Shown one piece after another: positions 10,100-43,583 of a stretch of DNA of 64,000 nucleotides. The stretch lies in assembly GCA_023150555.1 (NCBI GenBank), contig JAKLKQ010000021.1, positions 37,573 to 101,572 of the forward strand, given 5' to 3'. This stretch comes from Planctomycetota bacterium. GTDB lineage: Bacteria; Planctomycetota; SZUA-567; H5-PLA8. Positions within the stretch are counted from its first letter, which is position 1. Each line of letters starts with the position of its first letter. The position numbers and the translations under genes are program-made. A model generated the notes under the pieces. The model was not told where the DNA came from. It saw nothing but the letters and a program-made list of their open reading frames with translations, and ran no database searches.

Positions 10100-10106
10100 G
10101 CGCGCG

Positions 10107-18714: not shown

Positions 18715-21192
18715 ATGAGTAAGTCTACGATCCGGAGCATTTGTACACCACTGGCGATGGGCCTGTTGTTGGCCGCAATCGGGTTCAGTTTCTCGATGGC
18801 GACCACGCCTTCGGGCGCCGGTGCCCGGCTGGTGCCGGCCTGCACCGTGCCACCGCCAGATTTCGTTACGGGCCACGAGTCCAGCACCTCGGCAACCTGT
18901 TTCGACTTGGGCACGGTGGTAGTGAACCGCGAATTCACGCGTATCATCAACGTCCGGGACGGCACTCCGCCTTTCACCTTTTCGATCCTTACCGGCACGG
19001 TCCCGCGCCCGCAGAACAGCGTGCTCACACTGTCCAGTGCCGGCCAGTCGTCGATTCTCCTGACCGGCACCTTCCGAGGCCGCAGCCCCGACGACGGCGC
19101 TTGCCTGCCGCACGAAGGTGGACCCAATGTTCCTCCTGCCGCTCCGGACGACTACCACGTCTTTGAGCTGGAAGTCGAAGAGACCCTCAGCGGCACCATA
19201 GATACGCAGTTTTTCTGCATTCGCCTTGAGGAGATCACCGACGTCAACACGGAGATCGGGAATACCTCGGGCGACGAGTTCATCATCGAGGACCTGACCA
19301 ACGTCGCGCCCGTGATCGATCCCCTCGGCTTCGGCAGCCCGGTTCCCCCAGCTCCATTTCTGGGCACCAGCGACGGAGTCAGCTTCAATGACCTGCCCAA
19401 TGCCCTGCAACGCCAACCCTACAATTATCAGCTCCACATCAACGGCGGATTCCGCACGGGCGGCGACCTCATCACCCCGCTGGACTATACGCCCTCCGAC
19501 GACCTGACCCTTTTCAACCACGCCGGCGCCATCGCTCCCGACACCACCAGCGTCTTTTCAGGCCTGTCCGACGGGACGTACACCTTCGAGGTCGCCGACG
19601 TGGACTCCGACGGCGTGTTCGATCTGCTCGTCAGTTCGGACGTCGATCCTGGCCTGACGGGCTCCACGACCCAGACCTTCAACGACGTCATGGGTGCCGG
19701 CGGTGTCGTCCCCGGAGGCGCTGTGCTGTGCATCGGATCGCTGGGTGTACGCATGAACACCGCGGCGCCGCCAATTCCCGGGGGTACCGATCCGGTCGAT
19801 ACGGTCAAGATCGGCGACGTCTGGGTCATGGATGTCACGGCCTTCGAGCCCCCGGACATCATCTTCAGCCTGCACCCGGACAGCACGGACATGCCGCCCG
19901 GCCTGAGCCTCAGCGAGGACGGCCTGGTCTCGGGCACGCCTGACATCGCCGGCGACTACACGTTCATAGTAATCGCACAACAGGTCGAACGCACCGACGA
20001 CCCGGACACGGGCGAAGAGATCATCACCGTGCTCAAAGAGGCCGTAAGGCAGATCTTCCTGCGCGTCGATCCAGGCCCCATCAACAGCCAGTTCGTGCTG
20101 ACCAAAGGCCAGGTGACCTTCGACTTCGGCCATGCCGACAGCGACACCATGCGCTTGAACCTCCTTCTGGCGAAGGACCTGCTCAGGGACTTCTCCCAGT
20201 TGGAAGGCGCCACCTTCGACCTCGAGATCGGCGCGAACAACGATCGCATAGTCCTGTCCTCGTTGCTCACGGAAGGCCCGCTCACCTTTGGCCCGCAGGG
20301 CAGCATCGACTACCCGCCCCAACTGGCTATCGGCGACGAGCCGGGCAAGTACGCCAGCGATCCGAACATCCTGGTCAAGCCGTTGAACCCGAACCTGGGC
20401 GGCTTGAACCTGTTCATCTCCAACATCAGCCTCAAGAAGGCGATGGATGCGGCCAGCCTGGGGGCCTCGGGCATCATGGTCGTGCCGATCTCCATCGTCA
20501 TCACCGGCATCCAGACCGATTCGGGCCCACTCGACCTGCGGCTCGACGAGCTGGTTTCCTTTGCCTTCAAGAAGAGGAGCCTGGGCGCCTCGTCGACCAT
20601 GCCCAAGGGGTTCGCGGGTGCCACGGCCGGCGTCGGCCAGTTCATCATCGCGCCCGCCAACGGCTCGATCATCTTCGACCCCACCACCGGCAGCGACACC
20701 CTGAGCATGACCCTCAAGGGCTTCCTGCGTGACAACGTGCCCATTGCACCCCTGCTAACGCCTGGAAATCCGGTTCCGACCACGCTTGCTGACACGCGAA
20801 TGGACGTCCTGCTCGGCCTGCAGTGCGGCATGAGCACCCTCATGGAAGGCGGCGGCGTGGCGCCGTTCACCACCATCAAGAACACCACCAGCGCGAACGG
20901 ATTGGGCGGCAAGCTGATCATCACGTGCACCGATCCGGACGTTCCCGTGGCGCTCTTCGCCCTCAACAAGGCCACCGGTGCGTTCGTCATGAAGCTGCGA
21001 AGCCCGGCCACCAATGCCGGCCTGATCGCCGGCCTGGTCCCGCCGGACTCCCTGGTCCTGGACGTGGACGATCCGTTCGTCTTGACGGTGCGCATCCGGC
21101 TGTACCAAGAGTCCGACAACACCAACGTCGTGATCGACGCGACTTATTCGCTGGTGCTCTTCCGCAAGGGCAGGAAGCTGAACCTGAAGTAG
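18715..21192 (+). CDS. Secreted Ig-like (putative-Ig) surface protein
   Basis: 825 aa behind a strong AGGAGGAG ribosome site. A signal peptide (~1-30: PLAMGLLLAAIGFSFSMA) is followed by a beta-rich, Asp/Thr/Ser-rich protein with few charged clusters. A He_PIG-type putative-Ig repeat is visible (LPPG-like DMPPGLSLSEDGLVSGTPDIAGDYTF, shortened here). Acidic DVDSDGVFDLLV resembles a calcium-binding thrombospondin-type loop. No sorting signal or membrane anchor was found at the C-terminus. Probably a cell-surface or secreted structural/adhesive protein. It has its own promoter-like site upstream and a strong terminator downstream, so it is likely monocistronic. Confidence 0.75.
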   Translation: MSKSTIRSICTPLAMGLLLAAIGFSFSMATTPSGAGARLVPACTVPPPDFVTGHESSTSATCFDLGTVVVNREFTRIINVRDGTPPFTFSILTGTVPRPQNSVLTLSSAGQSSILLTGTFRGRSPDDGACLPHEGGPNVPPAAPDDYHVFELEVEETLSGTIDTQFFCIRLEEITDVNTEIGNTSGDEFIIEDLTNVAPVIDPLGFGSPVPPAPFLGTSDGVSFNDLPNALQRQPYNYQLHINGGFRTGGDLITPLDYTPSDDLTLFNHAGAIAPDTTSVFSGLSDGTYTFEVADVDSDGVFDLLVSSDVDPGLTGSTTQTFNDVMGAGGVVPGGAVLCIGSLGVRMNTAAPPIPGGTDPVDTVKIGDVWVMDVTAFEPPDIIFSLHPDSTDMPPGLSLSEDGLVSGTPDIAGDYTFIVIAQQVERTDDPDTGEEIITVLKEAVRQIFLRVDPGPINSQFVLTKGQVTFDFGHADSDTMRLNLLLAKDLLRDFSQLEGATFDLEIGANNDRIVLSSLLTEGPLTFGPQGSIDYPPQLAIGDEPGKYASDPNILVKPLNPNLGGLNLFISNISLKKAMDAASLGASGIMVVPISIVITGIQTDSGPLDLRLDELVSFAFKKRSLGASSTMPKGFAGATAGVGQFIIAPANGSIIFDPTTGSDTLSMTLKGFLRDNVPIAPLLTPGNPVPTTLADTRMDVLLGLQCGMSTLMEGGGVAPFTTIKNTTSANGLGGKLIITCTDPDVPVALFALNKATGAFVMKLRSPATNAGLIAGLVPPDSLVLDVDDPFVLTVRIRLYQESDNTNVVIDATYSLVLFRKGRKLNLK

Positions 21193-28083: not shown

Positions 28084-28118
28084 CGCCCCCGCAAGCTCAA
28101 CCGCACACCGGGCACTCA

Positions 28119-28390
28119 CGAGATTTCGCGACTGACGAAAAATGTCGGTCGCGAGATTTCGCGAGTTGCTCGCGAAATTTCGCGAATCACCACGTGCTGC
28201 GCGACGTGCTGGAGTGCACATGGCGATTTGTATCGATCTATCCTCGATTTCAACATGGTGCATCGGCGCGCGTGCCACGAAATCATTGGACTTACGACGA
28301 TTTTGCGCGACGTGCTGCACCGAGGTGCAAATAGGGTTTACGTGAACGAAGGGTGTTACGTTGCACATCGTGGATGTGTTACGTTGCTCG
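28119..28390. repeat. Cluster of degenerate repeats and TTTCGCGA hairpins
   Basis: The 1009-base stretch 28084-29092 has no gene. Just after fumC, GAGATTTCGCGA occurs twice, and ATTTCGCGAG-TTG-CTCGCGAAAT (28156-28178) is a perfect 10-bp hairpin. The word GCGCGACGTGCTG occurs near 28200 and 28305, and GTGTTACGTTGC twice (28353-28364, 28376-28387). The first of these lies in a 16-mer that matches, inverted, 15 of 16 bases at 8259-8274. Unit spacing is irregular, so this is not a CRISPR array. Confidence 0.6.
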
Positions 28391-28581: not shown

Positions 28582-28728
28582 ATTAGGATACGCCAGCGAA
28601 GTGCGGGGTGCATACGAACGAATGGCCCGGACGTCACCACGTCCGGGTCGAGGCGATGAAATCGTCACGACAAGATTCATCCGGGAGACGTTCAAGCTTG
28701 CGGGACGCCGCCGCACAGCCGGCCACCC

Positions 28729-28794
28729 TTCGGCGCAAAGCGCCGAACGCGTCCGCCACCGCCCCGCCGCTCCGCCCCCTTATATAAGGAGGCG
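28729..28794. repeat. Two-hairpin element, copy 1
   Basis: Hairpin 1 is TTCGGCGC-AAA-GCGCCGAA (28729-28747). Hairpin 2 is CGCCCCCT-TATATA-AGGAGGCG (28773-28794). The same two hairpins, flanked by the same AGCCGGCC word, recur at 33824-33873 with a changed first loop and a shorter spacer. The element lies in otherwise gene-free DNA. The rest of 28795-29092 shows nothing recognisable apart from the leader of the methylase gene. Confidence 0.6.
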
Positions 28795-29092
28795 CAAGGC
28801 CCGCCGAAAGAATCGCTCACTCGCGGCGCCGAAGTGCGCTACAATCCCGGCATGACCCGCAAGCACCTCACCGCCGCCCGCATAACAATGCGTCCAAACT
28901 TTCGGGTTGCATGTAAATCGCCGCTGGATACCTTATGCAACAGAGAATTGGGAGCGCCGCCTTCGTAACTTTTATATGTTTTTTCATGCAGAACAAACAC
29001 TTGCCTGCGCTATGATTCACAAGGGATGATTGGAGTTGCAGCACTTTTTGGCGAGCCGGCTCACTTGCAACGACGTCCGGGGAGCTTGACCC

Positions 29093-30574
29093 ATGTTGTC
29101 CGAAGTCGAACAGGTTCGCTTAAGGATATCCAGAGCCACCGACGCGAAAAAGAAATCGCAGTACGGCCAGTTCTTCACCTCCGAACGCACGGCCGCTTTT
29201 ATGGCCGGACTGTTCCCGCGAAGCAAGGGGACCTGCCACTTGCTGGATGCAGGCGCAGGGATCGGTTCGCTTTCCGCCGCGTTTCTAGAGCGCTGGCGCA
29301 GCGGGGAACTGAAATTTGACCATGTCGAATTGGAAGCCTTCGAAATCGACGAGACCCTTCATGAGCCTCTGAACGAAACGCTCAGACGGTTCGACCGTAA
29401 GTCCTTTACCAAACGCGTTCGGGGCGACGATTTTGTCCTTACGGCCTCCGATTGGCTCTCGGGTACGCTCTTCATGTCGCCGCCACAATTTACCCACGCA
29501 ATCCTAAACCCACCGTACAAGAAGATTGGTAGTTCCTCCGCCCATAGAATCGCCTTGCGCCGAGTCGGAATTGAGACGGTAAATCTTTATTCGGCGTTCG
29601 TTGCGCTGGCCGTTTCTCTCTTAGCTCCTGGCGGCCAAATTGTTGCGATTGTACCCAGGAGTTTCTGCAACGGCCCCTATTACCGCCCCTTCCGGGAATT
29701 CGTCCTCAATCGGTGTGTCATTCGTCATCTCCATTTGTTCGACTCACGCGATAAGGCGTTCAAGGACGACGACGTGCTCCAAGAGAACGTAATCGTCCGG
29801 TTGGAGCGCGGCGGGCGCCAACAAGAGGTGACCGTTTCAACCTCCGGAGACGACACGTTCAGCGACATATCGACGCGCAAACATTCCTTCGATGCCATTG
29901 TTGAGCCGAACGATTCCGAACGCTTCATTCACATCCCAACTTGCGCTCCAGGAACTTCCGAAACAACAGGCTCCCCCGCGTTTCATCATTCCTTGGGCGA
30001 TATTGGGCTCAGCGTATCGACGGGGCCGGTGGTCGATTTCCGGCTTCGGGATCATTTGGTGCGGATGCCGGAAAAGGGATGCGTCCCCCTGCTATACGCG
30101 TGCCACCTCACACCCACAGGCACGGTCTGGCCTTTGCAGGACTCGAAGAAACCCAATGCCATCCTGCGAAACGACGAGACCGAAAAGTGGCTCTACCCCA
30201 ATGGGTTTTACTGTGTGGTCAGGCGATTCTCGTCGAAGGAAGAAAAGCGGCGAATCGTCGCAAGGGTTGTCGATCCTCGCTCGTTCAAGAAGACTCCCGC
30301 ACTTGGGTTCGAGAATCACCTCAATGTCTTTCACGAGAACAGGAATGGCGTTCCGGAGGCGCTGGCCCACGGACTCGCGGCCTACTTGAATTCAACCATG
30401 GTCGATGAAAGCTTCCGGCGGTTTAATGGACACACCCAAGTCAATGCAACCGACCTAAGGCAAATGAAGTACCTGAGCCGGCAGGACCTTATCGGTCTTG
30501 GAAAGTGGGCGATGAAACAAGGAATTCCTTCGCAGAGCGCGATCGATAAAAAGCTCGGAACATTGCCTGCATGA
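29093..30574 (+). CDS. Type II N6-adenine DNA methyltransferase (PstI/BsuBI-type system)
   Basis: 493 aa. Motif X/N-terminal GQFFT, SAM-binding motif I DAGAGIGSLSAAF and catalytic NPPY (ILNPPYKKIG) mark a gamma-type N6-adenine methylase. The C-terminal ~250 residues form the target-recognition part. Its 3' end overlaps the endonuclease gene by four bases (ATGA), so the two are translationally coupled. It should methylate the same site the partner cuts; systems of this family recognise CTGCAG, but specificity here is untested. Base composition is less GC-rich than the core genes, suggesting transfer. Start chosen at ATG 29093, with GGGGAG nine bases upstream. Confidence 0.9.
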   Translation: MLSEVEQVRLRISRATDAKKKSQYGQFFTSERTAAFMAGLFPRSKGTCHLLDAGAGIGSLSAAFLERWRSGELKFDHVELEAFEIDETLHEPLNETLRRFDRKSFTKRVRGDDFVLTASDWLSGTLFMSPPQFTHAILNPPYKKIGSSSAHRIALRRVGIETVNLYSAFVALAVSLLAPGGQIVAIVPRSFCNGPYYRPFREFVLNRCVIRHLHLFDSRDKAFKDDDVLQENVIVRLERGGRQQEVTVSTSGDDTFSDISTRKHSFDAIVEPNDSERFIHIPTCAPGTSETTGSPAFHHSLGDIGLSVSTGPVVDFRLRDHLVRMPEKGCVPLLYACHLTPTGTVWPLQDSKKPNAILRNDETEKWLYPNGFYCVVRRFSSKEEKRRIVARVVDPRSFKKTPALGFENHLNVFHENRNGVPEALAHGLAAYLNSTMVDESFRRFNGHTQVNATDLRQMKYLSRQDLIGLGKWAMKQGIPSQSAIDKKLGTLPA

Positions 30575-31530
30575 GCACGTCCAAAAGAAGTCGCCAAATA
30601 AGGGCCGCGCTCAAAATTCTGACGGCACTCGGATTACCGCGCGCACAACAGAACGAACGCTCGGCGCTTTGCCTGTTAGCCTTGTCGAGCATTACGCCAG
30701 AAAGGTCGTGGGCCGAGGCGGAGGCTCCGCTGATTGGCATCACGCCGATCATGGATTGGGCGCGGGACCACTACAGAAAGCGGTATGCTCCAAATACGCG
30801 AGAAACAATTCGCCGCCAAACCATGCACCAATTCTGCGATGCGGGCATAGCCCTTTACAATCCCGACAAACCGGATCGAGCGGTCAACAGCCCACATGCG
30901 GTCTACCAGATCGAGCCTGCCGCCCTGGAATTGGTTCGCCTTTGGGGGACTTCGAATTGGAACAAGGCACTTAAGACTTACCTTGTCGAAAGGGAAACCC
31001 TGGTCGCCAAATACAAGAAGGCGCGTGTTCAACGGCAAATCCCCGTCGAGATTTCGCCAGGGAAGAAAATTTCGCTCAGTCCGGGCGAACACAGCGAACT
31101 CATTCGCGCAATCATTGAGGACTTCGCGCCTCGCTTTGCCCCAGGAAGCACTCTCGTCTATGTCGGAGACACCGGCAAGAAATGGGGATACTTTGATGCC
31201 CCCTTGTTGTCGAAACTGGGCATAACGGTTGATTCGCATGGGAAGATGCCGGATGTTGCTCTTTACTATTCAACAAAGAACTGGCTGCTGCTTGCGGAGG
31301 CCGTGACGAGCCACGGTCCTGTAGACGGCAAACGCCATCAAGAGCTCGCTAAACTATTCGCCGGATCGACGGCAGGTTTGGTTTTTGTAACCGCCTTTCC
31401 CAATCGCACGGTAATGAGCAGATATCTTGGCGATATCGCATGGGAAACCGAAGTATGGGTGGCCGACGCGCCGTCACATCTCATTCACTTTAACGGAGTC
31501 CGGTTTTTGGGCCCATACGATCCATCTTAG
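30571..31530 (+). CDS. BsuBI/PstI-family restriction endonuclease
   Basis: 319 aa. The N-terminal ~170 residues are a helical part; the C-terminal catalytic domain carries the family's strongest blocks: YVGDTGKKWGYFD, HGKMPDVALYY, NWLLLAEAVTSHGPVD and WVADAPSHLIHFNGVRFLGPY. The PD...E pattern fits a PD-(D/E)xK nuclease core. It cuts unmethylated DNA at the site protected by the upstream methylase. The ATG overlaps the methylase TGA. The gene appears full length and intact. CTGCAG is not avoided in this window (for example 138, 189, 333), as expected for a protected host or a recent arrival. Confidence 0.93.
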   Translation: MSTSKRSRQIRAALKILTALGLPRAQQNERSALCLLALSSITPERSWAEAEAPLIGITPIMDWARDHYRKRYAPNTRETIRRQTMHQFCDAGIALYNPDKPDRAVNSPHAVYQIEPAALELVRLWGTSNWNKALKTYLVERETLVAKYKKARVQRQIPVEISPGKKISLSPGEHSELIRAIIEDFAPRFAPGSTLVYVGDTGKKWGYFDAPLLSKLGITVDSHGKMPDVALYYSTKNWLLLAEAVTSHGPVDGKRHQELAKLFAGSTAGLVFVTAFPNRTVMSRYLGDIAWETEVWVADAPSHLIHFNGVRFLGPYDPS

Positions 31531-32412: not shown

Positions 32413-32530
32413 GCCCTCACTCTACCCCGCCCGTCCCGGACCGGAAGTCAAGAAAAGACATGTTTCTGTCAGCTTAGTCCATTTAGAACCTGCCCCCGTT
32501 GCGTTAGGTTCATCCATGTCGCTTCCCCAA

Positions 32531-32804
32531 GCAGTCCGTTGAAAAAGGGGCCAGGCCGCGTTGCGAGTAATTTTCGCACTGAACGAGGCGCGCGAAGCGG
32601 AGCCGTAGCTGGAGGCTACGGCGAGCGTAGCGGAACGAAGTTCAGGACGAAAAGGCCCGCAACCCTTTGGGCAGCCTTGTCTTGCGATCCGGACCTGCGT
32701 TGCGCTTCGCTGCGGCGTATCTTCTCGATACGCCTCGACTATGCGCGCCTTGGTCCAAATCACAATCCAAGGCTGCGCGGCCTGGCCCTTTTTCAACGGG
32801 CTGC
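32531..32804. mobile_element. MITE-like non-autonomous element, 274 bp
   Basis: The ends are terminal inverted repeats of 29-30 bases: left GCAGTCCGTTGAAAAAGGGG.., right the complement of GCAGCCCGTTGAAAAAGGGC.., differing by one substitution and one indel. Inside are two hairpins (GCCGTAGC-TGGAG-GCTACGGC at 32602-32622 and GGCGTATC-TTCT-CGATACGCC near 32714-32733) and no ORF of note. No clear target duplication is seen. A single degenerate end of the same element lies at 33689-33716, so the PhyH gene is bracketed by related ends. Confidence 0.75.
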
Positions 32805-32829
32805 TAGGCCCCGAGAGGAGTCCGATGCC

Positions 32830-33687
32830 ATGTCCCCTGACGCCGACGATCCGATGAGCCGCCGCGACCTCGCCTTCAAGCCCGTTTCAAATCCCGCGCC
32901 CAGGGTGCTGACGGCCGAACAGATCGAGCGCTACAACCGCGACGGGTACCTCACGCCATTCCCCATCTACAACGCGGCCGGCGCGGCGCGCAACCGCGCG
33001 TACTTCGACCGGCTCCTGGCGATGCTCAAGGCCTTCAAGGACGGGCGCGACACTTACGCGATCAACGGATACCACACGCACTGCCGGGGCATTTGGGACA
33101 TGGTCATGAATCCCGCGATCCTGGATATCGTGGAAGACTTGGTCGGCCCGGACATCGTCTGCTGGGGCACGCACTTCTTCTGCAAGCTGCCGCACGACCC
33201 CAAGTCGGTGCCGTGGCACCAGGACGCGTCGTACTGGCCGTTCACGCCCGCGCGCACCGTTACGGTTTGGCTGGCCATCGACGACACGGATACGGAGAAC
33301 GCCTGCATGTCCTTTCTTCCGGGCACCCACCGCCTGGGGCACCTGGCCTGGAAGCGCTCCGACAAGCCTGCGGTGCTGAATCAGGAGATCGAGGAGATCG
33401 GGCAGTACGGGCGCCCGGTGCCCGTGGAGTTGAAGGCCGGCGAGATCGAGCTGCACGCGGACATGCTTGCGCACGGTTCGCCGCCGAACACGTCCTCGCG
33501 CCGGCGCTGTGGGCTGACGATGCGCTATTGCCCGACGAGCGTGCGGTCCGTCAATGGCGGCTGGCGCAGCCAGGCCATCCTGTGCCGCGGCAGGGATCCC
33601 GACGCCTACTGGACGCCCGCGCCGCGGCCCGATGGCGAGGACTTGGCGATTCCAGCTAAGCGCAAGGAACTGATTGGCGCGAATTAG
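32830..33687 (+). CDS. PhyH-family Fe(II)/2-oxoglutarate dioxygenase
   Basis: 285 aa from ATG 32830 (GAGAGGAG upstream); the longer track ORF runs back through the MITE and the antisense AraC gene and is wrong. Phytanoyl-CoA dioxygenase fold: iron ligands His130 and Asp132 in WHQDASYW, distal His215 in AHGSPPNTSSRRR, and FLPGTHRLGH in between. It hydroxylates a small organic molecule using O2 and 2-oxoglutarate. The family is broad, so the substrate is not known. Its divergent neighbour is an AraC regulator, a pairing that suggests inducible small-molecule catabolism. Downstream DNA is a patchwork of repeat fragments. Confidence 0.85.
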   Translation: MSPDADDPMSRRDLAFKPVSNPAPRVLTAEQIERYNRDGYLTPFPIYNAAGAARNRAYFDRLLAMLKAFKDGRDTYAINGYHTHCRGIWDMVMNPAILDIVEDLVGPDIVCWGTHFFCKLPHDPKSVPWHQDASYWPFTPARTVTVWLAIDDTDTENACMSFLPGTHRLGHLAWKRSDKPAVLNQEIEEIGQYGRPVPVELKAGEIELHADMLAHGSPPNTSSRRRCGLTMRYCPTSVRSVNGGWRSQAILCRGRDPDAYWTPAPRPDGEDLAIPAKRKELIGAN

Positions 33688-33688
33688 G

Positions 33689-33716
33689 CCCATTGAAAAA
33701 GGGGCGCGGCCGCGTT
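33689..33716 (+). repeat. Solitary degenerate MITE end
   Basis: CCCATTGAAAAAGGGGCGCGGCCGCGTT matches the left terminal repeat of the 32531-32804 element in about 25 of 28 bases and in the same orientation. The rest of the element is absent. Confidence 0.6.
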
Positions 33717-33718
33717 CT

Positions 33719-33798
33719 GCGGCTGTTGAACATCTTCTGGAAGTCCCAGTGGTCGTAGAACTCCGTGCCGTAGCGCCGGTCGCTGGGACGGAGGTAGC
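33719..33798 (-). pseudogene. Orphan copy of the RPSDRRYG C-terminal tag
   Basis: Minus-strand translation gives LRPSDRRYGTEFYDHWDFQK and MFNSR, nearly identical to the C-terminus of the 42387-43583 protein, but without a matching gene body or stop. Read as a relic of a tagged gene, or as a moved fragment. It abuts the MITE end and the two-hairpin element. Confidence 0.6.
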
Positions 33799-33823
33799 CG
33801 CCCGCGGACGCAGCCGGCCTCCA

Positions 33824-33873
33824 TTCGGCGCGCAGCGCCGAACGCGTCAACCGCCTCCTGATATAAGGAGGCG
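33824..33873. repeat. Two-hairpin element, copy 2
   Basis: TTCGGCGC-GCA-GCGCCGAA (33824-33842) and CGCCTCCT-GATATA-AGGAGGCG (33852-33873). Same order, stems and flanks as 28729-28794. One stem base differs between copies (T here, C there), leaving the stem perfect only in this copy. Confidence 0.6.
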
Positions 33874-33981
33874 CGGGAGTTCATCCGCGCCAACCGCCAT
33901 GTCCTTGAACCGCGGCGTCGCCGATTGCCTGGCGGGGCCGGAGAACCGAAATCGTGCGCTCAGCCGGTACAACACAAGAAG

Positions 33982-34314
33982 TCAATGCGGAACAGAACTC
34001 GAGAATACGTTGAGGACAACCACGCCGGCTACGATCAAGGAAAGTCCGATAAGGGCCGGCGTATCCAGCGCCTGTCCCAGGAAGATCCATGCGACCAGGG
34101 CAATCAGGGCGACGCCTACACCGGACCAGATTGCATAAACCACCCCCACCGGGATGGTTTCGAGCGTGAGCGACAGAAAGTAGAACGCGGACAGGTAGCC
34201 GACGGCAACGATAATCGACGGCCAAAAGCGCGTAAAGCCTTCGGAAGACTTCAGCGCCGAAGTGGCGATCACTTCGCTGCATATAGCCACGGCAAGTATC
34301 AGCCACTTCTGCAT
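33982..34314 (-). CDS. emrE: EmrE-like small multidrug resistance (SMR) exporter
   Basis: 110 aa from ATG 34314, behind GGAGG; the track's extra 11 residues are not needed, and this start gives EmrE's exact length. Four helices. The essential proton/substrate carboxylate Glu14 and Trp63 (YAIWSGVG) fall at the same positions as in EmrE. The SSEGFTRFWPS and GVVVLNVFSSSVPH blocks are also typical. Works as an antiparallel dimer exchanging protons for cationic, often quaternary-ammonium, compounds. Last gene of a three-gene minus-strand cluster (hydrolase, Rieske oxygenase, SMR; gaps 17 and 45 bases), so it may export the pathway's substrate or product. Confidence 0.92.
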   Translation of the reverse strand: MQKWLILAVAICSEVIATSALKSSEGFTRFWPSIIVAVGYLSAFYFLSLTLETIPVGVVYAIWSGVGVALIALVAWIFLGQALDTPALIGLSLIVAGVVVLNVFSSSVPH

Positions 34315-34359
34315 TCGCCTGATCCTCCGCCACCGAACGCCAACCATCTATTGGTCCGC

Positions 34360-35478
34360 CTATGCGCCCCCGGCGGACGCAAGACCCGCCGAAGCAACCG
34401 CTTCCATGGCCCGGTTGTAGAATTGGTGGAACATCGCCATGCCATCCTCGTACGGCCTTTGATACGGGCCCTCGGCTTCACGGCGCTGCTGGTACAGAAG
34501 CCTGCGGCCCGTCGCAATGCGGCTGCACAGGTCCGAATCCTCAAGCATGGTCTCTTCGCACGCCGCTTCCGCGGCGGCCACCAGGTCGGGCCGTGCCTCG
34601 GCGATGTCCCGGTGATGAAAGTAGTCGGAATACAACACCGAAGATTCCGGACCGGTTGGATGAATGGTCGTGATCAGCATGTACAGCGGATAACACTCGA
34701 TCATGAGATTGGGGTAATACATAAGGAGAATGCCCGCGTATTCGGGAATATCCCCTTTGAAGAACTCAAGCAAACCATCGATCCATTTCCTGTAAACGGG
34801 CGTGGCGTTATTCGAGCGCAAGTGGCGCGGCGAACGCGGCCTGATGAGTTGCGCATGATACTCCCCATGCTCGACCCATTGCATGCTGGGCATATCCAGG
34901 AAGGCGCAGAATCCCGGATGGATAAAAGGAATGTGGTAGTTTTCGCCGAAAACGTCGATGTAATGCTTCCAGTTATAGCCGACATCCTCGCGGACGGTCC
35001 GCCGATAGACCATCTTGTCGATCTGCATGGCTTCCAACAGGTGAAAATCCTCAAAGACCGGGCCGGGCTGCGACGGCCCCTCGAACAGCAGGCCCTTCCA
35101 TTGCAGCAACTCGCCCTTGCCGAGCCGAACCGTGGCTTTCTCATCCCGATAAAGAGGAGAGTGCACGCACCGGCCGTCGTGTTCATAGCTCCAGCGGTGC
35201 ATCGGACAGGTCAAGAACCGGCTGTTTCCGCAACCCGAAAGCATCTGCGCCTGGCGATGGGCGCAGATATTGTCGATCAGTTGCAGTTGGCCTCCTTTCT
35301 TGGTGAGAATCTTCGAATCCTGCAGCCGCTCAACGACATAGTAGTCGCAATCGTTCTTTACCTTTCCGGCCGCGGTCAGGTAGCTGACTCGGTTCCGAAA
35401 AAGCAGGTCCAACTCCATTTGGTATACTTCCGCATCGAAATAGCTTCGGACAGGTATACCGGCTGCCTTCTTCACCAT
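34360..35478 (-). CDS. Rieske non-heme iron oxygenase, alpha subunit
   Basis: 372 aa from ATG 35478, with GGGGAGG nine bases upstream (the track start is a GTG lying on that site). Rieske [2Fe-2S] ligands are Cys72-His74 (ICAHR) and Cys91-His94 (CPMHRW). The catalytic domain has iron ligands His182 and His187 in GENYHIPFIHPG. The residue bridging the two centres is Glu179, where classical ring-hydroxylating enzymes have Asp; Glu here is known from quaternary-amine enzymes such as carnitine monooxygenase CntA and GbcA-like proteins. No reductase or beta subunit is adjacent. An SMR exporter follows and a hydrolase precedes. Substrate is inference only. Confidence 0.88.
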   Translation of the reverse strand: MVKKAAGIPVRSYFDAEVYQMELDLLFRNRVSYLTAAGKVKNDCDYYVVERLQDSKILTKKGGQLQLIDNICAHRQAQMLSGCGNSRFLTCPMHRWSYEHDGRCVHSPLYRDEKATVRLGKGELLQWKGLLFEGPSQPGPVFEDFHLLEAMQIDKMVYRRTVREDVGYNWKHYIDVFGENYHIPFIHPGFCAFLDMPSMQWVEHGEYHAQLIRPRSPRHLRSNNATPVYRKWIDGLLEFFKGDIPEYAGILLMYYPNLMIECYPLYMLITTIHPTGPESSVLYSDYFHHRDIAEARPDLVAAAEAACEETMLEDSDLCSRIATGRRLLYQQRREAEGPYQRPYEDGMAMFHQFYNRAMEAVASAGLASAGGA

Positions 35479-35495
35479 GGACGGCACCCTCCCCT

Positions 35496-36386
35496 CTACT
35501 GGATGCGCTCTAGGAAATCGGCAATGGTGCCGGCCACCAGGGCCTTTTCGCGGTCGACGGTCGCAAGGTGATACGAGTCCTCGAGGATCAGCGACTCAAA
35601 CACCCTGCTGCTTGCTCCGGCCTGGATATCCTTGAGGCTTCGAAGGCTGGACACTTCATCATCCAGCGGATGGATGGCGCATATTGGAGCGGTAATCTTG
35701 TCCAGATGCTTTCGAACGTAATGGTTCATCTGCCGCATCTCGCAAATGCTTCGAAATGGGATTTTCGAGTAATGTGTTTTTGAAGAAGCGCACATTTTAG
35801 ACTTGATCCACCGGCGGATATTTTCGTCTTTCACTCCGTATGGATGGCTCTCCTTGACGTTGTACAGAAAATAGAGCGGCGTGTAGACCGCATAGGGGAT
35901 CAAACACGTCGTCCATGGCAGCCCCCATCCATCGAAATGGAGGGTAGTTGAAATCGGGCAGATACTCTTTATGCGGCAGCCGTTGCGAATGCCGAGGTAC
36001 AGCGCCAGCACCGCGCCCATGCACAGACCGGACACCGAAACCGTCGAATACCGTGCAGAGACCTTCTCGAATTCCGCCTGGGCGGCCGAAGCAAAATCCT
36101 GCCATTTCAATTTCCTGAGCTGGCTGTAGTGCGCGCAATGGCCCGGCAGCACCGGAAGTTCGACGTGAAATCCCTTCCGCTGCAAGGTACGGCGAAGGTA
36201 CAGCATCTCCGCCGGGCTGCCGCCCAGGCCGTGGAAGAGCAGCACGGCATGCTCGGAAGTCTTTCGAATTCGCACGCCGCTCAGCCCATCGCCGCGTGGG
36301 GAGGCGGGCCATCGAGTCCCGGCTTCGAGGTTTCCCGTGGGCGCATGTTGCGTTGGCGCGTCTGGCTGGCCAGATGGCTCCATCAT
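35496..36386 (-). CDS. Alpha/beta hydrolase with cysteine at the nucleophile elbow
   Basis: 296 aa. Oxyanion-loop motif HGLGGSP, nucleophile elbow SGLCMGA (Cys122 where Ser is usual), acid in HPLDDEVS (Asp242/243) and His273 in EDSYHLAT. The lid region (~150-230) is aromatic-rich. A Cys in G-x-C-x-G occurs in dienelactone hydrolases and PHA synthases; overall, spacing and length are closer to carboxylesterase/monoacylglycerol-lipase types. It has no signal peptide and an unconserved ~35-residue N-terminus. First gene of the hydrolase-Rieske-SMR set, 17 bases before the oxygenase; strong AGGAGGAGG ribosome site. Confidence 0.8.
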   Translation of the reverse strand: MMEPSGQPDAPTQHAPTGNLEAGTRWPASPRGDGLSGVRIRKTSEHAVLLFHGLGGSPAEMLYLRRTLQRKGFHVELPVLPGHCAHYSQLRKLKWQDFASAAQAEFEKVSARYSTVSVSGLCMGAVLALYLGIRNGCRIKSICPISTTLHFDGWGLPWTTCLIPYAVYTPLYFLYNVKESHPYGVKDENIRRWIKSKMCASSKTHYSKIPFRSICEMRQMNHYVRKHLDKITAPICAIHPLDDEVSSLRSLKDIQAGASSRVFESLILEDSYHLATVDREKALVAGTIADFLERIQ

Positions 36387-36440
36387 GCGACACCTCCTCC
36401 TTAAGAGCCAAGAATTGGTGCATTCGGCAACGGAACCGGG

Positions 36441-38030
36441 TTACTGGCCGTCTTGGAACTCGAACTTGATTCTCTCTTGCGTCAGCATTTTTGTTTGGCT
36501 GAGAGGAACCAGCTTCGCCGGGTCGCGAATCGCTTCGGGAACCTCGGCGTCCTCCAGTTCGCGCACTTCCAATTTCTGCAAAACCAGATTCTTGAAGGCA
36601 AAGCAGATCCGGTCCGCAGGACGCGCGGATTCAAATTCCTGGAAAAAGATCGGGCCGGTGCTTGAATTGAAACAGGTGACCAGATAGCGGCCCAGCACAT
36701 ACGTGTGCAGGTTAAGCTCATCCTGGGAAGCCGGCGAACTCAACTTCCAGCATGTGAATCGAATGGATTCCTGACTATTGCACCAGGCAAATAGCATGAA
36801 GCCTCTGTTGGGCTCATGCCCATCGACCCGGCCACCCTCCTGGGGAAGTTCAGACACCTTTGCCGTCAGACGCACAGGACCGGAAGGAATCCGGCAAGGA
36901 ATTTCTACTACGGCAAACCTCTGGCTCGCGTCGGCCGCGTCCCGTGGCGCTTCCGCGAACTGCTGGGGCACATGATACATTCCCGCACCGGTTGAGGCCC
37001 TACCGGCCTTCCATTTCCATTCGCCTAGACGCAGCCGCATTTCCTTATGCGGGCCACGCTCGAAGTCCCAACTTGCATGCAGCTTTTCTTTTCCGGCGGA
37101 AAGCGTCTCGCCCTGCATGCCCGGCGGCGTTGCCTTTGATTCAGCCTGGCCGGATTCGGCAGGCGCGGCTGCAGGAGGAGAAGTTTCTGGAATGGAGCGG
37201 ATGAAGACTCCGCACACCACGGCCAGGAGTGCCACTGCGCCAACCCACACCCCTTTCCAAGCAGAAAGGGGCGCTGCCGCTTTGCCGCTTGAACGAGCGG
37301 CCGATCGAGTGGAAATCCTTTTCAGCACCCGTGCCTGGATTCCGTGGGGAACCTCGCCCACGGACCCGATCGCTTCAGCGAACAACTCGGAACTCAGCGC
37401 GGGCACGGCCGAGGCGAGGCCCGCCGACTTCAGGTTCAGCCGCAGGCGTTCCAGGGCGTCCTGGATGCGCACCGAGACCGTACTCTGGGGGAGCTTCATC
37501 AGATTGGAGATCTCGGCCTGCGTCATTTCTCCCACATAGTAGAGCACGAGCATCTGCCGCAGTTCTAGCGGCAGCTTCGCCAGCATCTCCCAAAGCGTGC
37601 GGTGGAGTTCCAGCCGGTTCGCGGCCTCCGCCGGATTGGGGCTTTCGGTTGCCTTGGGCTCGTTCATTCTGGCCTTCAACCTTTTCTTCTCGTTCTGTTC
37701 CCGCCGGACGACGCGCAGTCCCCTGTTCGCGACAACGCGCATAAGCCACGCCTCGGCCCGGGCATGCGTTGGTTGGTATTTTTCCGCCTGCATCCACACG
37801 GCAAACATGGCCTCTTGCACGATCTCCTCGGCAAGGGCTGCGTTCGCTACCAGGTAATAGGCAATCTTGTAGGCGCGCGCGTGGTGGCGGTTAAAGAGTT
37901 CGGTAAAGGCCGCCTTGTTGCGCCGGCCGGCTATGGTCGTCAGCAGGTCTTCGTCCGAACGTGAAGCCCAGTCCTCTACCTCGTCCTCGGCGCGGGCCTT
38001 CGGTTTGAGGGGTTGAATGCCCATATTCAT
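36441..38030 (-). CDS. Second ECF sigma factor fused to membrane-anchored sensor-like domain
   Basis: 529 aa, same plan as 8501-10099. Sigma region 2 (~30-105: FTELFNRHHARAYKIAYYLV, EEIVQEAMFAVW) and region 4 HTH (~150-205: MTQAEISNLMKLPQSTVSVRI) precede one transmembrane segment (GVWVGAVALLAVVCGVFI). An outer domain of ~230 residues opens with HASWDFERGP and GEWKWKAG, echoing the VLWNF...GRWFW start of the other copy. Otherwise the outer domains have diverged, so they probably sense different signals. Position upstream in orientation of the hydrolase-Rieske-SMR cluster (54 bases) raises the possibility of co-transcription or control. Less GC-rich than core genes. Confidence 0.83.
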   Translation of the reverse strand: MNMGIQPLKPKARAEDEVEDWASRSDEDLLTTIAGRRNKAAFTELFNRHHARAYKIAYYLVANAALAEEIVQEAMFAVWMQAEKYQPTHARAEAWLMRVVANRGLRVVRREQNEKKRLKARMNEPKATESPNPAEAANRLELHRTLWEMLAKLPLELRQMLVLYYVGEMTQAEISNLMKLPQSTVSVRIQDALERLRLNLKSAGLASAVPALSSELFAEAIGSVGEVPHGIQARVLKRISTRSAARSSGKAAAPLSAWKGVWVGAVALLAVVCGVFIRSIPETSPPAAAPAESGQAESKATPPGMQGETLSAGKEKLHASWDFERGPHKEMRLRLGEWKWKAGRASTGAGMYHVPQQFAEAPRDAADASQRFAVVEIPCRIPSGPVRLTAKVSELPQEGGRVDGHEPNRGFMLFAWCNSQESIRFTCWKLSSPASQDELNLHTYVLGRYLVTCFNSSTGPIFFQEFESARPADRICFAFKNLVLQKLEVRELEDAEVPEAIRDPAKLVPLSQTKMLTQERIKFEFQDGQ

Positions 38031-38298
38031 GCCCTTGGCGCCCTACCTTTCTGAAGGTAATGCGCACCATGAGAAGATTTCATCAAGAAATTCAGGAATC
38101 TTATGGTCTGCGCGCTCAGCGGGGAGGGCTTGTCTCTCAACTACCTTAAGCATAAAGACTTAACCGATACCAGCGGGCGCGTTGCGACTCGCGCGGCGGA
38201 GCGGCTGGCGGGCCAATGGCTATTCCAGGAAGAGGTGCAGCCTTGGCGAACGTGTCCCCTGTCAGGCCCCGCCGATGGAAAATTGATCTAGCGCCCGC

Positions 38299-38372
38299 TC
38301 AGCGGTTGCCGAACATCTTGCGGAAGGCCCAGTGGTCGTAGAAGCCCAGCCGTACTGCCGGTCGCTGGGGCG
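38299..38372 (-). pseudogene. Frameshifted relic of the RPSDRRYG tag
   Basis: In the 518-base gene-free stretch 38031-38548, minus-strand frames give FFRPSDRQYG and, after a frameshift, GFYDHWAFRKMFGNR followed by TGA. The DNA matches the 3' end of 42387-43583, including a few bases past the stop (CCGCTCAGCGG). No gene body remains upstream. The rest of the stretch shows nothing recognisable. Confidence 0.65.
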
Positions 38373-38548
38373 GAAGAAGCCGACCCGCCGGCGGGGCGGC
38401 CCCGTTACATTTAACCCCGCATAATACCGCAGAGGTCCGGGTTTCGGCGGGCCCGCGCGGTCCGCGGTGTACAAATCTTCAGAGCGCGGCGGGGGCATGT
38501 CTTGGTTTACCCGCCCCGCCGGACTATCCTGGCACAAGGAGTGCTCCC

Positions 38549-41239
38549 ATGACCCCCGCCTACCCTGCGGCCCAACGCATGACCCGCCTGCACCTTTTCC
38601 GGATCGCATGCCTCCTTCTATTGTTTGGCTCCGGCGCCGCGCAGCATGCCGCGGACGCCGCGCCTGCTGCCCCCGCCTTCGCGCAGGAACCTTCGGTGCG
38701 GCGGGACGGTTCGGGCTGGCGCATCGACTTCGCCGTTGCCGCGCCGACGGACGTGACGATCTACATCCAGGACGCCGAAGGCAGAATCGTGCGCCACCTC
38801 GTCTCGGGCGTGCTGGGCGAGAACCCGCCCGCGCCGCTGGTGCCGGGGCTGAAGCAGTCGGTGCCCTGGGACGGCAAGGCCGACCTGGACCGCGACGCGG
38901 GCGCGGGGCCGTTTACCGCACGCGTCTGCCTGGGCATGAAGGTGGACTACGACGGCGAGGTGCTCTCGGACCGCCTCTCGCTGACGCGCTTGCGGGCGCT
39001 GGCCGCGGGGCCCGACGGGACGCTGTACATCGTCACGCGCATCGGGACCTCGGGGCCCAACTGGAAGGGCCACCGTCTGATCGCGCTCAACCGCGACGGC
39101 ACCTACCAGCGCACGGTCCTGCCGCCGCCGGCGGGGCTTGGAAGGGAGCAGTGGAAGAACCTGGGCGCGCGCACGATCACGCTGGACGGGCGCGAGGCGC
39201 CGGTCTTTCTCGAACTTCAGACGAGGCAGCTGACAGGCCTGGACTTCGCGGGCGGCTACTACAACGGGACGGACGCCGGCCCCGGCATCGCCCTGACGCC
39301 CGGCGGCTACGCGCTGACGCTGCAGAACGACGGCTCGATGGCGATGGTCGCGCTGGACCCGCACAAGCAGGACCTGCCCCTGAACGCGCCCAAGCTGCTC
39401 CCGGACCTGAAGCTCTCGAGCTTCCTGACCAACGAGCGCAGTTTCGTGGCGGTGTCGGGTGACGGAGTGTACGCCTATTTCACGGGCATCGCGCCGAGCC
39501 GGCTCTATTCGAGCAAGCCGGCCCAGAAGATTCCTGCCGTCTACCGCGTAAAGCTGCCGGAGCGTTCGCCGGCCGAGGTCTTCTACGGGAACCCCGCGAA
39601 GGCCGGCGACGACGACGGCGAGGTCTCCGCCGACGTCGGCAGCCTGGCCGCCGACGGCCGCGGGACGCTGTTCGTCACCGACCCAGCCCACGACCGCATC
39701 CTGGCGCTGGACGAGGCCTCCCGGAAATGCCTGGGCCGGCTGAAGGTCGAGAAGCCGCAGAAGATCGCCGTGGACCGGACCTCGGGCGCGCTCTACGTGC
39801 TCGGGAATCCCGGCCACCGCAACCACAAGGTCGAGCTGCTCAAGTTCAACTCGTGGAAGGACCCCAAGCCGGCGGCGAAGATCGAACTGAACGGCCTGGT
39901 GCGGACCAGCGCCGCGCACTGGGACCTGGCGGTGGACGGCTCGGCGCAGCCCCCGGTGCTGTGGGCGACCGACAACTACCTACTGCTGCGGATCGAGGAC
40001 CAGGGCGCAGCTTTCTCGAAACCCGCGCGCATCGGCAACTCGTCGATGGGCGACGCCTCCTTCGTAGACGTCAGCGTGGACCGCTTCCGCGAGCCCAACG
40101 AGGTCTACATCCGCAGCCGCTTCTACGCGTGGACGCGCATCAACGAGGCCACCGGTGCGCAGGAGACCGTCTCGCTGGCGATTCCCAGCAACGGGGGTTC
40201 GTGCCTGCAGGCGGGGCCGGACGGCCACCTGTACACGCCCGCGTGGCCCTGCTACCTGCTGAAGTGGGATCGCAACGGCAAGCGCGTGCCCTGGGGGCAG
40301 CCGTTCGAGAAGCCGCCGGGCAGCGAGAAGCACCACGTCCTGGCGCGCAAGGACCCGATCTCCAACGCCATCTTCGCGCGCGTGGCGATGATCTATATGA
40401 CCCACACGCACGGCATCCGCTACGACGGGCAGCATTTTATCTTCGAGGGCCAGGGGCGCGTGGCGAAGGCGCTGAACGAGATCGACCCCGGCGGCAAGCG
40501 CGTAGGACAGCCGGTGATCTGGAACGCCACGGACAACGCGATCGGCCCGCGCTTCGACCCGCAGGGAAACATCTACGTCGCCGACGTCGTGCGGCCGCTC
40601 GACCGCATGGTCCCGCCGGAACTGGCGGAACTGGCCGGCGAACTGAAGCCCGGCGGGCGGATCTCGGGCCCCGCGTCCGAGGCGATCCGTTCGTACGGCA
40701 GCATCCTGAAGTTCTCGCCCAAGGGCGGCGCGATCGAGTTCCCCGGCGTCGCCGGCGTGGCCAAGAGCATGATGGAGCCCAAGCCCTACGAGGGCGAGAT
40801 GAAACTCGATCCTTCGCTGAAGGCCGTGGAGATGGCGGCCAGCACCCGCGACCTGGCGATCGTCTCCGCGAAGGTCACCGGCGCGCAGTGGGCGCACTTC
40901 GGGATCAGCCACGTGGAACTGACGCAATGCAATTGCGAGAACACGCGCTTCGACGTGGACTGGTTCGGGCGCGTCTGGTATCCGGACCTGGCCTGCTACC
41001 GCGTGGGGGTGCTCGACACCAACGGCAACCCCATCGCGCGCTTCGGCGGCTACGGCAACGCCGACTCCATGGGACCCGAGAGCAAGGACGAACGCCTGGC
41101 CGAGCCCGGCCTGGCCTTTACCTGGCTGATCGGCGTCGCCGCTTCGGACCGCCACGTCTACATGGGCGACAGCATGAACCAGCGCCTGCTGCGCGGGCGC
41201 ATCGCCTACGCGAAGGAAGCCGCCTGCGCGGTCAAGTAG
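38549..41239 (+). CDS. Secreted FlgD-Ig/NHL-type protein (third paralogue)
   Basis: 896 aa with AAGGAG seven bases before the ATG. Signal peptide ~11-40, then the FlgD-like Ig segment shared with 1-779 and 1065-4031 (RIVRHLVSGVLGENPPAP, WDGKADLD). A long propeller follows with turns such as GRGTLFVTDPAHDRILALD, GPRFDPQGNIYVADVV and, near the end, HVYMGDSMNQRLLRGRI. No catalytic motif. Its 3' end overlaps the convergent GntR/LacI-type regulator by 8 bases. Probably extracytoplasmic recognition or scaffold; function unassigned. Confidence 0.85.
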   Translation: MTPAYPAAQRMTRLHLFRIACLLLLFGSGAAQHAADAAPAAPAFAQEPSVRRDGSGWRIDFAVAAPTDVTIYIQDAEGRIVRHLVSGVLGENPPAPLVPGLKQSVPWDGKADLDRDAGAGPFTARVCLGMKVDYDGEVLSDRLSLTRLRALAAGPDGTLYIVTRIGTSGPNWKGHRLIALNRDGTYQRTVLPPPAGLGREQWKNLGARTITLDGREAPVFLELQTRQLTGLDFAGGYYNGTDAGPGIALTPGGYALTLQNDGSMAMVALDPHKQDLPLNAPKLLPDLKLSSFLTNERSFVAVSGDGVYAYFTGIAPSRLYSSKPAQKIPAVYRVKLPERSPAEVFYGNPAKAGDDDGEVSADVGSLAADGRGTLFVTDPAHDRILALDEASRKCLGRLKVEKPQKIAVDRTSGALYVLGNPGHRNHKVELLKFNSWKDPKPAAKIELNGLVRTSAAHWDLAVDGSAQPPVLWATDNYLLLRIEDQGAAFSKPARIGNSSMGDASFVDVSVDRFREPNEVYIRSRFYAWTRINEATGAQETVSLAIPSNGGSCLQAGPDGHLYTPAWPCYLLKWDRNGKRVPWGQPFEKPPGSEKHHVLARKDPISNAIFARVAMIYMTHTHGIRYDGQHFIFEGQGRVAKALNEIDPGGKRVGQPVIWNATDNAIGPRFDPQGNIYVADVVRPLDRMVPPELAELAGELKPGGRISGPASEAIRSYGSILKFSPKGGAIEFPGVAGVAKSMMEPKPYEGEMKLDPSLKAVEMAASTRDLAIVSAKVTGAQWAHFGISHVELTQCNCENTRFDVDWFGRVWYPDLACYRVGVLDTNGNPIARFGGYGNADSMGPESKDERLAEPGLAFTWLIGVAASDRHVYMGDSMNQRLLRGRIAYAKEAACAVK

Positions 41240-42338
41240 GCGCCGGGCCCGCCGTGCCAGCGTCGACCCACGCGGCGGGAACGCGCACCGGCGGCGCGCC
41301 CGCCGGCTCGAAGACCGCGCGCAGCGCCCGTTCGCCCACGATCCGAAAATCGAACGCCATGCCGCTGATCCCGGGCTTCGCGGACAAGCCCTGGAAGCAC
41401 GCCACGCTGAACGCGCCCGGCACGCGCCGGCCCGCCTTGCGCGCGGCGCGAATCACCAGCTCCGCGGTTCGCGCGTCCGAGACCAGCGCCGCCGTGTAGC
41501 CCGCGCGCGGCCCGGCCACCGAGCGGATGTTCGGGCTGTCGGGCGTCTCGGTGTGGAAGGCCGTGTGGAGGTCCTTCTTGCGGGCGTGCAAACCCGCGGC
41601 CTTCAGCGCGGCCTCGTAGCCGGCCTGGCGTTCGCGGGAATCGGGGTCGATACCCCGCCGGGTAAACGAGATGCGCCGCAGGAAGGCGATGCGGCGGTGG
41701 CCCATGCCGATCAGGCGCTCGGTGCAGGCGCGCGCGGCTTCGAAGTTGTCCACGCCAACGCAGCGCAGGCCCCTGGGCGCAGAGGGATAATCGGCGAGCA
41801 CCACCGGCACCGCCAGCTTCTGACATTCGCGCAGCACGCCGTCGGAAACCAGGCCGGTGACCAGGATGCCCGACTGCGGCATGTCCATCCAGCCGGACGG
41901 GAGCTTGGTACGCAACGCGTACGAACTGACGACGATCAGCGCGCACTCCATCCGCCCCGCCCCGTCCTCTATGCCGCGCTGCAACTCCGCGGCGTCGGAG
42001 CCCTTCAGCTTCAGGTGCAGGGGCATGGGGACGAGCTGCAGGACCGCGCGCCGGGGATCGAGGGGCTCCTGGTTGCCGCCGGGGCGGGCCACCGCCAGGC
42101 GGCGCTTGGGCGAGCGGGCAATCCAGCCTTCCTGGTGCAGCAGCCGCGTCGCCGCGCGCACGGTATCGACGGTGGTCTGGAGGTCCCGCGCAAGCGTCCG
42201 CTGCGAAGGCAGGATTTCCCCTGGCTTCCAGACGCCCTTGACGATGCGCTGCCGCAACGCATCGGCGATGCGCCGGAACGCCGTGCCGGCCTGAACGGGA
42301 CGCCCGCGTTTTCGGCCGCCGGAACCTGAAGATGCCAT
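41232..42338 (-). CDS. GntR-type HTH fused to LacI-like ligand-binding domain
   Basis: 368 aa. N-terminal winged HTH of GntR type (~20-85: FRRIADALRQRIVKGVWKPGEILPS, then TVDTVRAATRLLHQEGWI). The rest is a periplasmic-binding-protein fold as in LacI/GalR (SGILVTGLVSDGVLRE, VPVVLADYPS, CVGVDNFEAARACTERLIGMGHRRIAFL). This AraR-like arrangement generally represses sugar-use genes until a sugar binds. The late region (ACFQGLSAKPGISGM) is shorter than usual. Lies 48 bases downstream of the HEAT-like gene in the same direction. Target not evident. Confidence 0.88.
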   Translation of the reverse strand: MASSGSGGRKRGRPVQAGTAFRRIADALRQRIVKGVWKPGEILPSQRTLARDLQTTVDTVRAATRLLHQEGWIARSPKRRLAVARPGGNQEPLDPRRAVLQLVPMPLHLKLKGSDAAELQRGIEDGAGRMECALIVVSSYALRTKLPSGWMDMPQSGILVTGLVSDGVLRECQKLAVPVVLADYPSAPRGLRCVGVDNFEAARACTERLIGMGHRRIAFLRRISFTRRGIDPDSRERQAGYEAALKAAGLHARKKDLHTAFHTETPDSPNIRSVAGPRAGYTAALVSDARTAELVIRAARKAGRRVPGAFSVACFQGLSAKPGISGMAFDFRIVGERALRAVFEPAGAPPVRVPAAWVDAGTAGPAPT

Positions 42339-42386
42339 GGGTGACCCGTAAAGCTCCGGCGCCGCCGTACCAGGAGCGCAGCCCGC

Positions 42387-43583
42387 TCAGCGGTTGCCGA
42401 ACATCTTCTGGAAGTCCCAGTGGTCGTAGAACTCCTTGCCGTAGCGCCGGTCGCTGGGGCGGAAGAAGCCGCTCGCCGTCTCGCGGTCGACCGTCCGGAA
42501 TTCTTCGCGTCGCCAGACCTTGTCCGCCGGGCGCGCGGCCTCCTTTGGGTACGCCTCCTTGGGGTACGCCTCCGCCGGCGTCGTCGCGCTCTCCGCTTCG
42601 GCCAGCGCCGACGGCGTCGGGTAGCTGCGCTTTACCAGCACCAGCGCTCGGAGTTCCTCCAGCTTCGCCATGTAGTCCGGATCCTTCCGGTCGAGTTCGG
42701 GTTCGCCCAGCTGCGGCGGCAGAAGATCGAAGTTCTGGTCGTACCAGCCGATGTACGCACGCAGCGCCTCCTGCACCAGCGGGCTGCGGGGTTCGACGCC
42801 CGGGAACGCCAGGCCCGTTAGCCGCGGCAGCGTCTCGCGCAGCGCGCGGATGTACGGCCGCTGGAACCAGGCGACTTCGCCCTCTTCCGGCATCACCGAA
42901 TAGAAGGACTCGATCAGCGCCTTGCCCGCGTTGCGCGCGCCGAAGTCGCCCAGCAGTTCGGCGCAGATCGCGCGGGCTTCGGCGGTGGATCCGCCCAGCG
43001 CCTTCGCGAGTTCGGGCACGATCACGGGACCGAGCGCGCGCAGGCGTTCCTTCCCGGCGGTGCGCTCGGCGGGATCGTCGCTTTCCGCCAGCACGAAGGC
43101 GGCGTCGAACTTCGTCTGAGTCGCCTCGTCGAGCACCGGCCACAGGGGCGCCTCCGGCGCGGCGGGCGCGGCTTTCGGCGTTTCAGGTGCAGGTGCGGGT
43201 GCAACGGGCTCGACGGGTGCGGGTGCGGGCGGTTCGGTCGTCTCCTGCGAAGGCTTCACTTCCTTCGGAGCTTCAGGCGCAACTGCGGGCGCGGGCATGG
43301 GAGCGTCTTCCTGGAAGCCCGTGGACTTGATCGTAGGCTCGGGCCCCACCTGCATCACCGCGGGCGTGCGCCTGCGCCGCACGAAGGTGACCTTCTCCTT
43401 CTTGAAGGAGCGCAGCCGGCCGCTGTCGTGCTCGCGGACGGTCAGCACGAGCGGCGTCTCCTGCTCGACCAGGCCCAGGATCTCGCGGCCGTCGTCGAGG
43501 AATACCAGATCGAGGCTTCCGCTCTCCTGCGCAAAGCCCGGTGCGCAGCAGACGAAAACGAGAACCGGCAGCCAGCCTTTCAT
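42387..43583 (-). CDS. Secreted HEAT-like protein ending in RPSDRRYG tag
   Basis: 398 aa. A signal peptide (MKGWLPVLVFVCCAPGFA) leads into a small beta domain (LDLVFLDDGREILGLVEQET, like SH3-type pilotin segments), a Pro/Ala/Glu linker (~95-150), and a helical HEAT-like region (~155-330: TAGKERLRALGPVIVPELAKAL). A duplicated EAYPKEAYPKEA follows. The final ~25 residues, FFRPSDRRYGKEFYDHWDFQ then KMFGNR, are highly conserved against two orphan fragments at 33719 and 38299. That tail is the notable part: it recurs independently of the rest. Function unknown; likely periplasmic. Confidence 0.75.
   Translation of the reverse strand: MKGWLPVLVFVCCAPGFAQESGSLDLVFLDDGREILGLVEQETPLVLTVREHDSGRLRSFKKEKVTFVRRRRTPAVMQVGPEPTIKSTGFQEDAPMPAPAVAPEAPKEVKPSQETTEPPAPAPVEPVAPAPAPETPKAAPAAPEAPLWPVLDEATQTKFDAAFVLAESDDPAERTAGKERLRALGPVIVPELAKALGGSTAEARAICAELLGDFGARNAGKALIESFYSVMPEEGEVAWFQRPYIRALRETLPRLTGLAFPGVEPRSPLVQEALRAYIGWYDQNFDLLPPQLGEPELDRKDPDYMAKLEELRALVLVKRSYPTPSALAEAESATTPAEAYPKEAYPKEAARPADKVWRREEFRTVDRETASGFFRPSDRRYGKEFYDHWDFQKMFGNR

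Follow-up and report, generated by a model that had tools for sequence, protein, structure and literature searches.

Why should the 3′ end of one gene recur twice, without the gene, on the same stretch of a planctomycete genome? In the 64,000-nucleotide stretch of DNA analyzed here, referred to as the window, the last codons of a 398-aa open reading frame (gene A) are found again in two orphan fragments. The initial annotation read these codons as a conserved C-terminal tag under selection, perhaps a sorting or assembly signal. Our analysis points instead to the end of gene A as a probable site of insertion of foreign DNA.

Three direct copies of a gene end

The features concerned are the following (window coordinates).

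42387–43583, minus strand: gene A, open reading frame of 398 aa
42372–42478, minus strand: repeat copy A, made up of the gene A 3′ end and ~15 bp of downstream DNA; the functional copy, from which B and C derive
33700–33805, minus strand: repeat copy B, an orphan with 8 unique substitutions and its stop lost
38291–38390, minus strand: repeat copy C, an orphan with 7 unique substitutions, a 1-base deletion (frameshift) and its stop kept

Both orphans are 89% identical to copy A, B over 93 bp (E 3e-31) and C over 99 bp (E 1e-30). As all copies lie on the minus strand they are direct repeats, about 93–105 bp long, with spacings of 4583 and 4088 bp between successive copies. The recurrence of the gene end as two orphans, as first reported, was thereby confirmed. 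The next best match to the repeat DNA within the window reaches only E 0.06, so the repeat is not a chance similarity. Genome-wide (6.62 Mb, 183 contigs) A, B, and C are the only copies, apart from a diverged match (75% over 72 bp) at the C-terminus of a paralogue of gene A on contig C156.

Copy B had been described as a full-length tag without a gene body at 33719–33798. The gene body is indeed missing, but the stop codon has changed from TGA to AGA and the reading frame continues past it, so that the open reading frame of the tag is incomplete. The description of copy C as a frameshifted tag with its stop (38299–38372) holds: one base is deleted, shifting the frame, and TGA is retained. Identity slightly past the stop had also been noticed, and homology extends ~6 bp (C) to ~15 bp (B) beyond the gene A stop. 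The 5′ edges of B and C map to 42476 and 42478 on gene A (≤2 bp apart) and the 3′ edges to 42372 and 42381 (≤9 bp apart). The longest block identical across A, B, and C is 16 bp.

Gene A belongs to an unnamed family of HEAT-repeat proteins

The product of gene A has a signal peptide (identified by eye), an N-terminal beta domain (residues 25–69), a linker, HEAT-like helices (residues 151–287) and a tail with the tag. Searches of Pfam, NCBIfam and PADLOC with gene A matched no family. In a profile search, residues ~150–221 resembled alphaRep and natural HEAT structures in the PDB (E 4e-19). Beyond what these HEAT-repeat proteins contain, gene A encodes a signal for secretion, a beta domain at the N-terminus and a C-terminal tail, and its family is unnamed in Pfam and NCBIfam. 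The AlphaFold2 model has a helical core of high confidence and a mean pLDDT of about 41–52 per block from residue 331; the tail carrying the tag is probably a disordered end.

Relatives of gene A are present in 7/7 family genomes, with two copies in some relatives, and the named records of the family are Planctomycetota MAGs. Scanning further genome contigs for the family returned only records of members already found, and the viral contigs searched contained no relative of gene A. Most family members end in a motif like RExAGGxxRExDxxxGxDFF, and only gene A extends beyond it, with YDHWDFQKMFGNR. The first half of the repeat encodes this C-terminus conserved across the family, from which it follows that gene A is the source and the orphans are copies. 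The repeat thus encodes the C-terminal motif of a single uncharacterised HEAT-repeat family of Planctomycetota, followed by an extension specific to gene A. The finding that had been named as refuting a tag, i.e., a sequence restricted to the family of one gene, with extra copies that are partial duplications, is thus what was observed.

One family member from the same genome is of special relevance.

Contig C156 (L087), 9252–10457, minus strand: paralogue of gene A, apparent syntenic orthologue of the relatives' genes

This paralogue, and not gene A, has three downstream neighbours in common with the relatives' genes, their proteins being about 70–83% identical; the first of these neighbours is 74–81% identical in family members. 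Gene A is therefore an extra copy in this lineage.

The orphan copies drift and the gene copy does not

Position-wise comparison of the three copies assigned eight polarised substitutions to B, seven to C and none to A, and at one further site each copy has a different base. Under equal rates, the probability that 0 of 15 substitutions fall in A is about 0.002. Ten of the 11 substituted codons in the orphans are protein-changing: 6/7 changed codons in B, the lost stop being one, and 4/4 substituted codons in C, where a fifth codon has lost a base. At most one synonymous codon was seen in 24% of the trials in a random-mutation simulation, and unconstrained drift is thus compatible with what the orphans show. 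No derived change is common to B and C, and neither can thus have been copied from the other after decay. Judged from the sequences, the two were each derived independently from an undecayed A-like sequence and have similar ages.

A selected module, whether a sorting or assembly signal or an RNA or terminator element, copied for its function, would fit the conserved C-terminus of the gene A family. The orphans, however, are frameshifted or have lost their stop, and nearly all of their changes are non-synonymous, with none in the gene copy. No unrelated protein of 99 genomes carries the tag above chance; throughout the genome and its relatives it is C-terminal in one family only. Weak tag-like matches in relatives (E 0.04–1) fall outside the gene A family, except those in genomes G001 and G005. 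The repeat matched no RNA family and folds no more strongly than shuffled sequence. With a motif confined to one family, drifting orphans and a low-confidence, probably disordered tail, we find the selected signal initially proposed highly improbable.

A search for tRNA genes found nothing. The repeat was also considered as a terminator and rejected, as the genes on the two sides of copy C start there and diverge, and its folding is not unusual.

Copies B and C frame a foreign four-gene operon

Between the two orphans lies a compact operon.

33806–38290: segment B–C, acquired unit of foreign composition, GC 0.585 compared with ~0.67
36441–38030, minus strand: cargo 1, ECF sigma-70 factor with a ~300-aa C-terminal extension, codon z −16
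35496–36386, minus strand: cargo 2, alpha/beta hydrolase, codon z −12
34360–35487, minus strand: cargo 3, Rieske ring-hydroxylating oxygenase alpha subunit, codon z −12.5
33982–34347, minus strand: cargo 4, SMR-family efflux transporter, codon z −8

The four genes are closely ordered on one strand. GC3 of the segment is ~0.70, and its surroundings have GC 0.66–0.70 and GC3 of about 0.85–0.92. The cargo has codon z from −8 to −16, compared with values within ~±4 for the other genes of the window, except one at −7 and a restriction-modification pair described below. A change-point fit with one low-GC segment placed the edges at 33943 and 38172 (log-likelihood gain 75.7), with 3-unit support ranges of 33633–33993 and 38152–38362, which overlap the repeats B and C, respectively.

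Among 294 genomes of the phylum, the cargo 2 hydrolase has a match in just one besides its own, and the cargo 3 Rieske protein has none at E 1e-20 in 40 relatives. Compared with plasmids, the cargo found only distant Rieske proteins, about 29–33% identical among the ten best records. By its composition, the B–C operon is foreign and horizontally acquired.

The ECF sigma factor heads the operon, and its ~300-aa C-terminal region has no match in Pfam.

Segment C–A is native in composition

The segment between C and A and the far flank of B contain the following.

38391–42371: segment C–A, native composition, GC 0.70, GC3 0.89–0.92
38549–41239, plus strand: NHL-repeat protein
41232–42338, minus strand: GntR/LacI-type regulator
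32830–33687, plus strand: PhyH-domain gene, convergent on copy B; the listed open reading frame begins at 31657 and the start is presumed to lie near 32830

The codon usage of the C–A genes is native, and the NHL gene is from a family that matched 16 times in this genome and often in relatives. It is the repeats that suggest C–A to be an insert.

Several other unusual sequences were seen in the window. Just past the PhyH gene, an Eco57I-type methyltransferase and a BsuBI/PstI restriction endonuclease (29093–31530; GC3 0.60–0.65, codon z about −19 to −21) form a second, separate foreign unit. A MITE-like element of 282 bp (32527–32808) has ~34-bp terminal inverted repeats (CCTAGCAGCCCGTTGAAAAAGGGCCAGGCCGCG-like), and a third, partial copy of such an end (33688–33716) abuts repeat B. 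Palindromic REP-like sequences at 28716–28795 and 33811–33880 (TTCGGCGCAAAGCGCCGAA and CTTATATAAG) adjoin both foreign units and have partial copies elsewhere in the genome, some beside low-GC stretches. Short CGCGAGATTTCGCGA-type repeats occur at 28110–28185, a stretch that matches (78%, 166 bp) a part of the contig beyond the window (L090:9241–9406). Finally, an 825-aa gene at 18715–21192 has a mildly unusual codon z of −7.1 among otherwise native neighbours.

Probable tandem insertion at the 3′ end of gene A

Integrative elements are known to insert at the 3′ ends of protein genes, where one repeat keeps the gene intact, and decayed elements of this type accrete in tandem (PMC5704250). We favour, at somewhat better than even chances, a tandem array, now decayed, that two insertions left at the gene A 3′ end, with the repeats as remnants of attachment sites. 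An incoming element would have carried the last ~95 bp of gene A as its attachment site and recombined with the same sequence in gene A, which would restore the gene end and leave the displaced end at the far border. A second round would give the order gene A (with copy A), NHL/regulator unit, C, foreign four-gene operon, B, PhyH flank, with the PhyH gene as the original downstream neighbour of gene A. No longer selected, the displaced ends B and C would have drifted by ~9% each. We infer the order of the insertion events as well as a site-specific recombinase, probably of the tyrosine type, whose gene would since have been lost or which would have acted in trans.

What is observed, and argues for tandem insertion, are direct repeats with nearly identical edges in both orphans, the direction from gene to orphan and the drift of the orphans (0, 8, and 7 substitutions, none common to B and C), and the foreign composition of B–C, which the orphans frame and whose edges, estimated from composition only, agree with the repeats. 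The rarity or absence of two operon genes in relatives points the same way. As in an island or CIME, direct repeats are found at both ends and one of them contains the end of the intact target gene. Tyrosine recombinases (PF00589) had no match on the 101.6-kb contig and 17 elsewhere in the genome. The locus is therefore not a functional tyrosine-integrase element; a CIME predicts such an absence, which in itself proves nothing. A search for an empty site in family members of other genera found flanks that are not syntenic with those of gene A, and no duplicated gene end was seen at the 3′ ends of homologues at nine related loci.

The length of the repeats, ~95–105 bp, is a point against insertion by a recombinase, as it exceeds the 8–60 bp given for direct repeats of such elements (PMC5704250) and is long for att cores, although whole att sites span 30–200 bp (PMC4057263). 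Together with the missing integrase on the contig, the native composition of C–A and the lineage-typical NHL gene, it would suit a process independent of a recombinase, in which repair or template switching copied the gene A end locally and foreign DNA was captured between the copies, or one in which only B–C moved, with the tag copies as its own ends, and C–A is native. However, two separate accidents would hardly agree within 2 and 9 bp at the two edges, or land on both borders of one foreign segment. We regard these routes as unlikely, yet they are the ones to be taken most seriously beside tandem insertion.

Decay of several full copies of gene A by deletion, leaving the 3′ ends, was one of the two explanations offered at first. 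Gene A is itself an extra paralogue with its syntenic orthologue on another contig, and some relatives have two copies, which favours such a history. Yet no gene-body homology could be found upstream of B or C, both fragments start at the same codon, and the gaps are filled by intact, compact genes, all of which makes decay improbable. The other explanation, that the 3′ module itself was copied, fits the common starting point of B and C in gene A.

An assembly artefact, with a foreign piece misjoined at the repeats, has to be considered for a metagenome-derived genome in 183 contigs whose related records are MAGs, as foreign DNA between repeats is a typical pattern of misassembly. But the copies differ by ~10% and share identical blocks too short to mislead typical assemblers, and a false join at a repeat would produce one hybrid copy and not two diverged ones. 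We judge such an artefact very unlikely. Equally slight is the chance that the 3′ end of gene A is a collecting site, at which small operons are captured again and again by an unrecognised system that has no resident tyrosine integrase and labels each border with ~95 bp copied from the gene end, in a manner reminiscent of the attC sites of integron cassettes.

A gene 3′-end repeat with nearby imperfect copies is also the layout of diversity-generating retroelements, with the gene end as variable repeat and an orphan as template, but the differences are not confined to template adenines (about 4/8 with B as template, 1/8 with C) and the two reverse transcriptase matches of the genome lie on other contigs, which excludes this explanation.

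Implications and comparison with known integrative elements

Read as tandem insertion, an apparent peptide tag becomes a marker of horizontal gene transfer: an uncultured lineage of planctomycetes, in which few integration sites have been described, would have gained a small operon for a sigma factor, a hydrolase, a Rieske oxygenase and an efflux transporter at the 3′ end of a gene. Where similar partial gene copies turn up, one should look for islands beside them before assuming that a tag is under selection. The insertion event at the end of gene A is most likely ordinary in kind.

The closest parallels are CIMEs and tandem accretion (PMC5704250). In these as at the gene A locus, direct repeats hold one end of the target protein gene, the cargo lacks integration genes, and tandem units have common repeats. 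The locus differs in its longer repeats and in units of only ~4 kb, and for the gene A site no functional relative that encodes an integrase is known.

A second parallel is PAISt of Streptomyces turgidiscabies at the 3′ end of bacA (PMC4057263). PAISt itself is far larger, its tyrosine recombinase is demonstrated and its palindromic core measures 8 bp, whereas neither a recombinase nor a core was found at the gene A locus; in relatives of PAISt, the integrase and the sites are eroded (PMC4057263). The arrangement is nevertheless similar: from the 3′ end of a protein-coding gene onwards there are three direct repeats, of which two flank and the third is internal.
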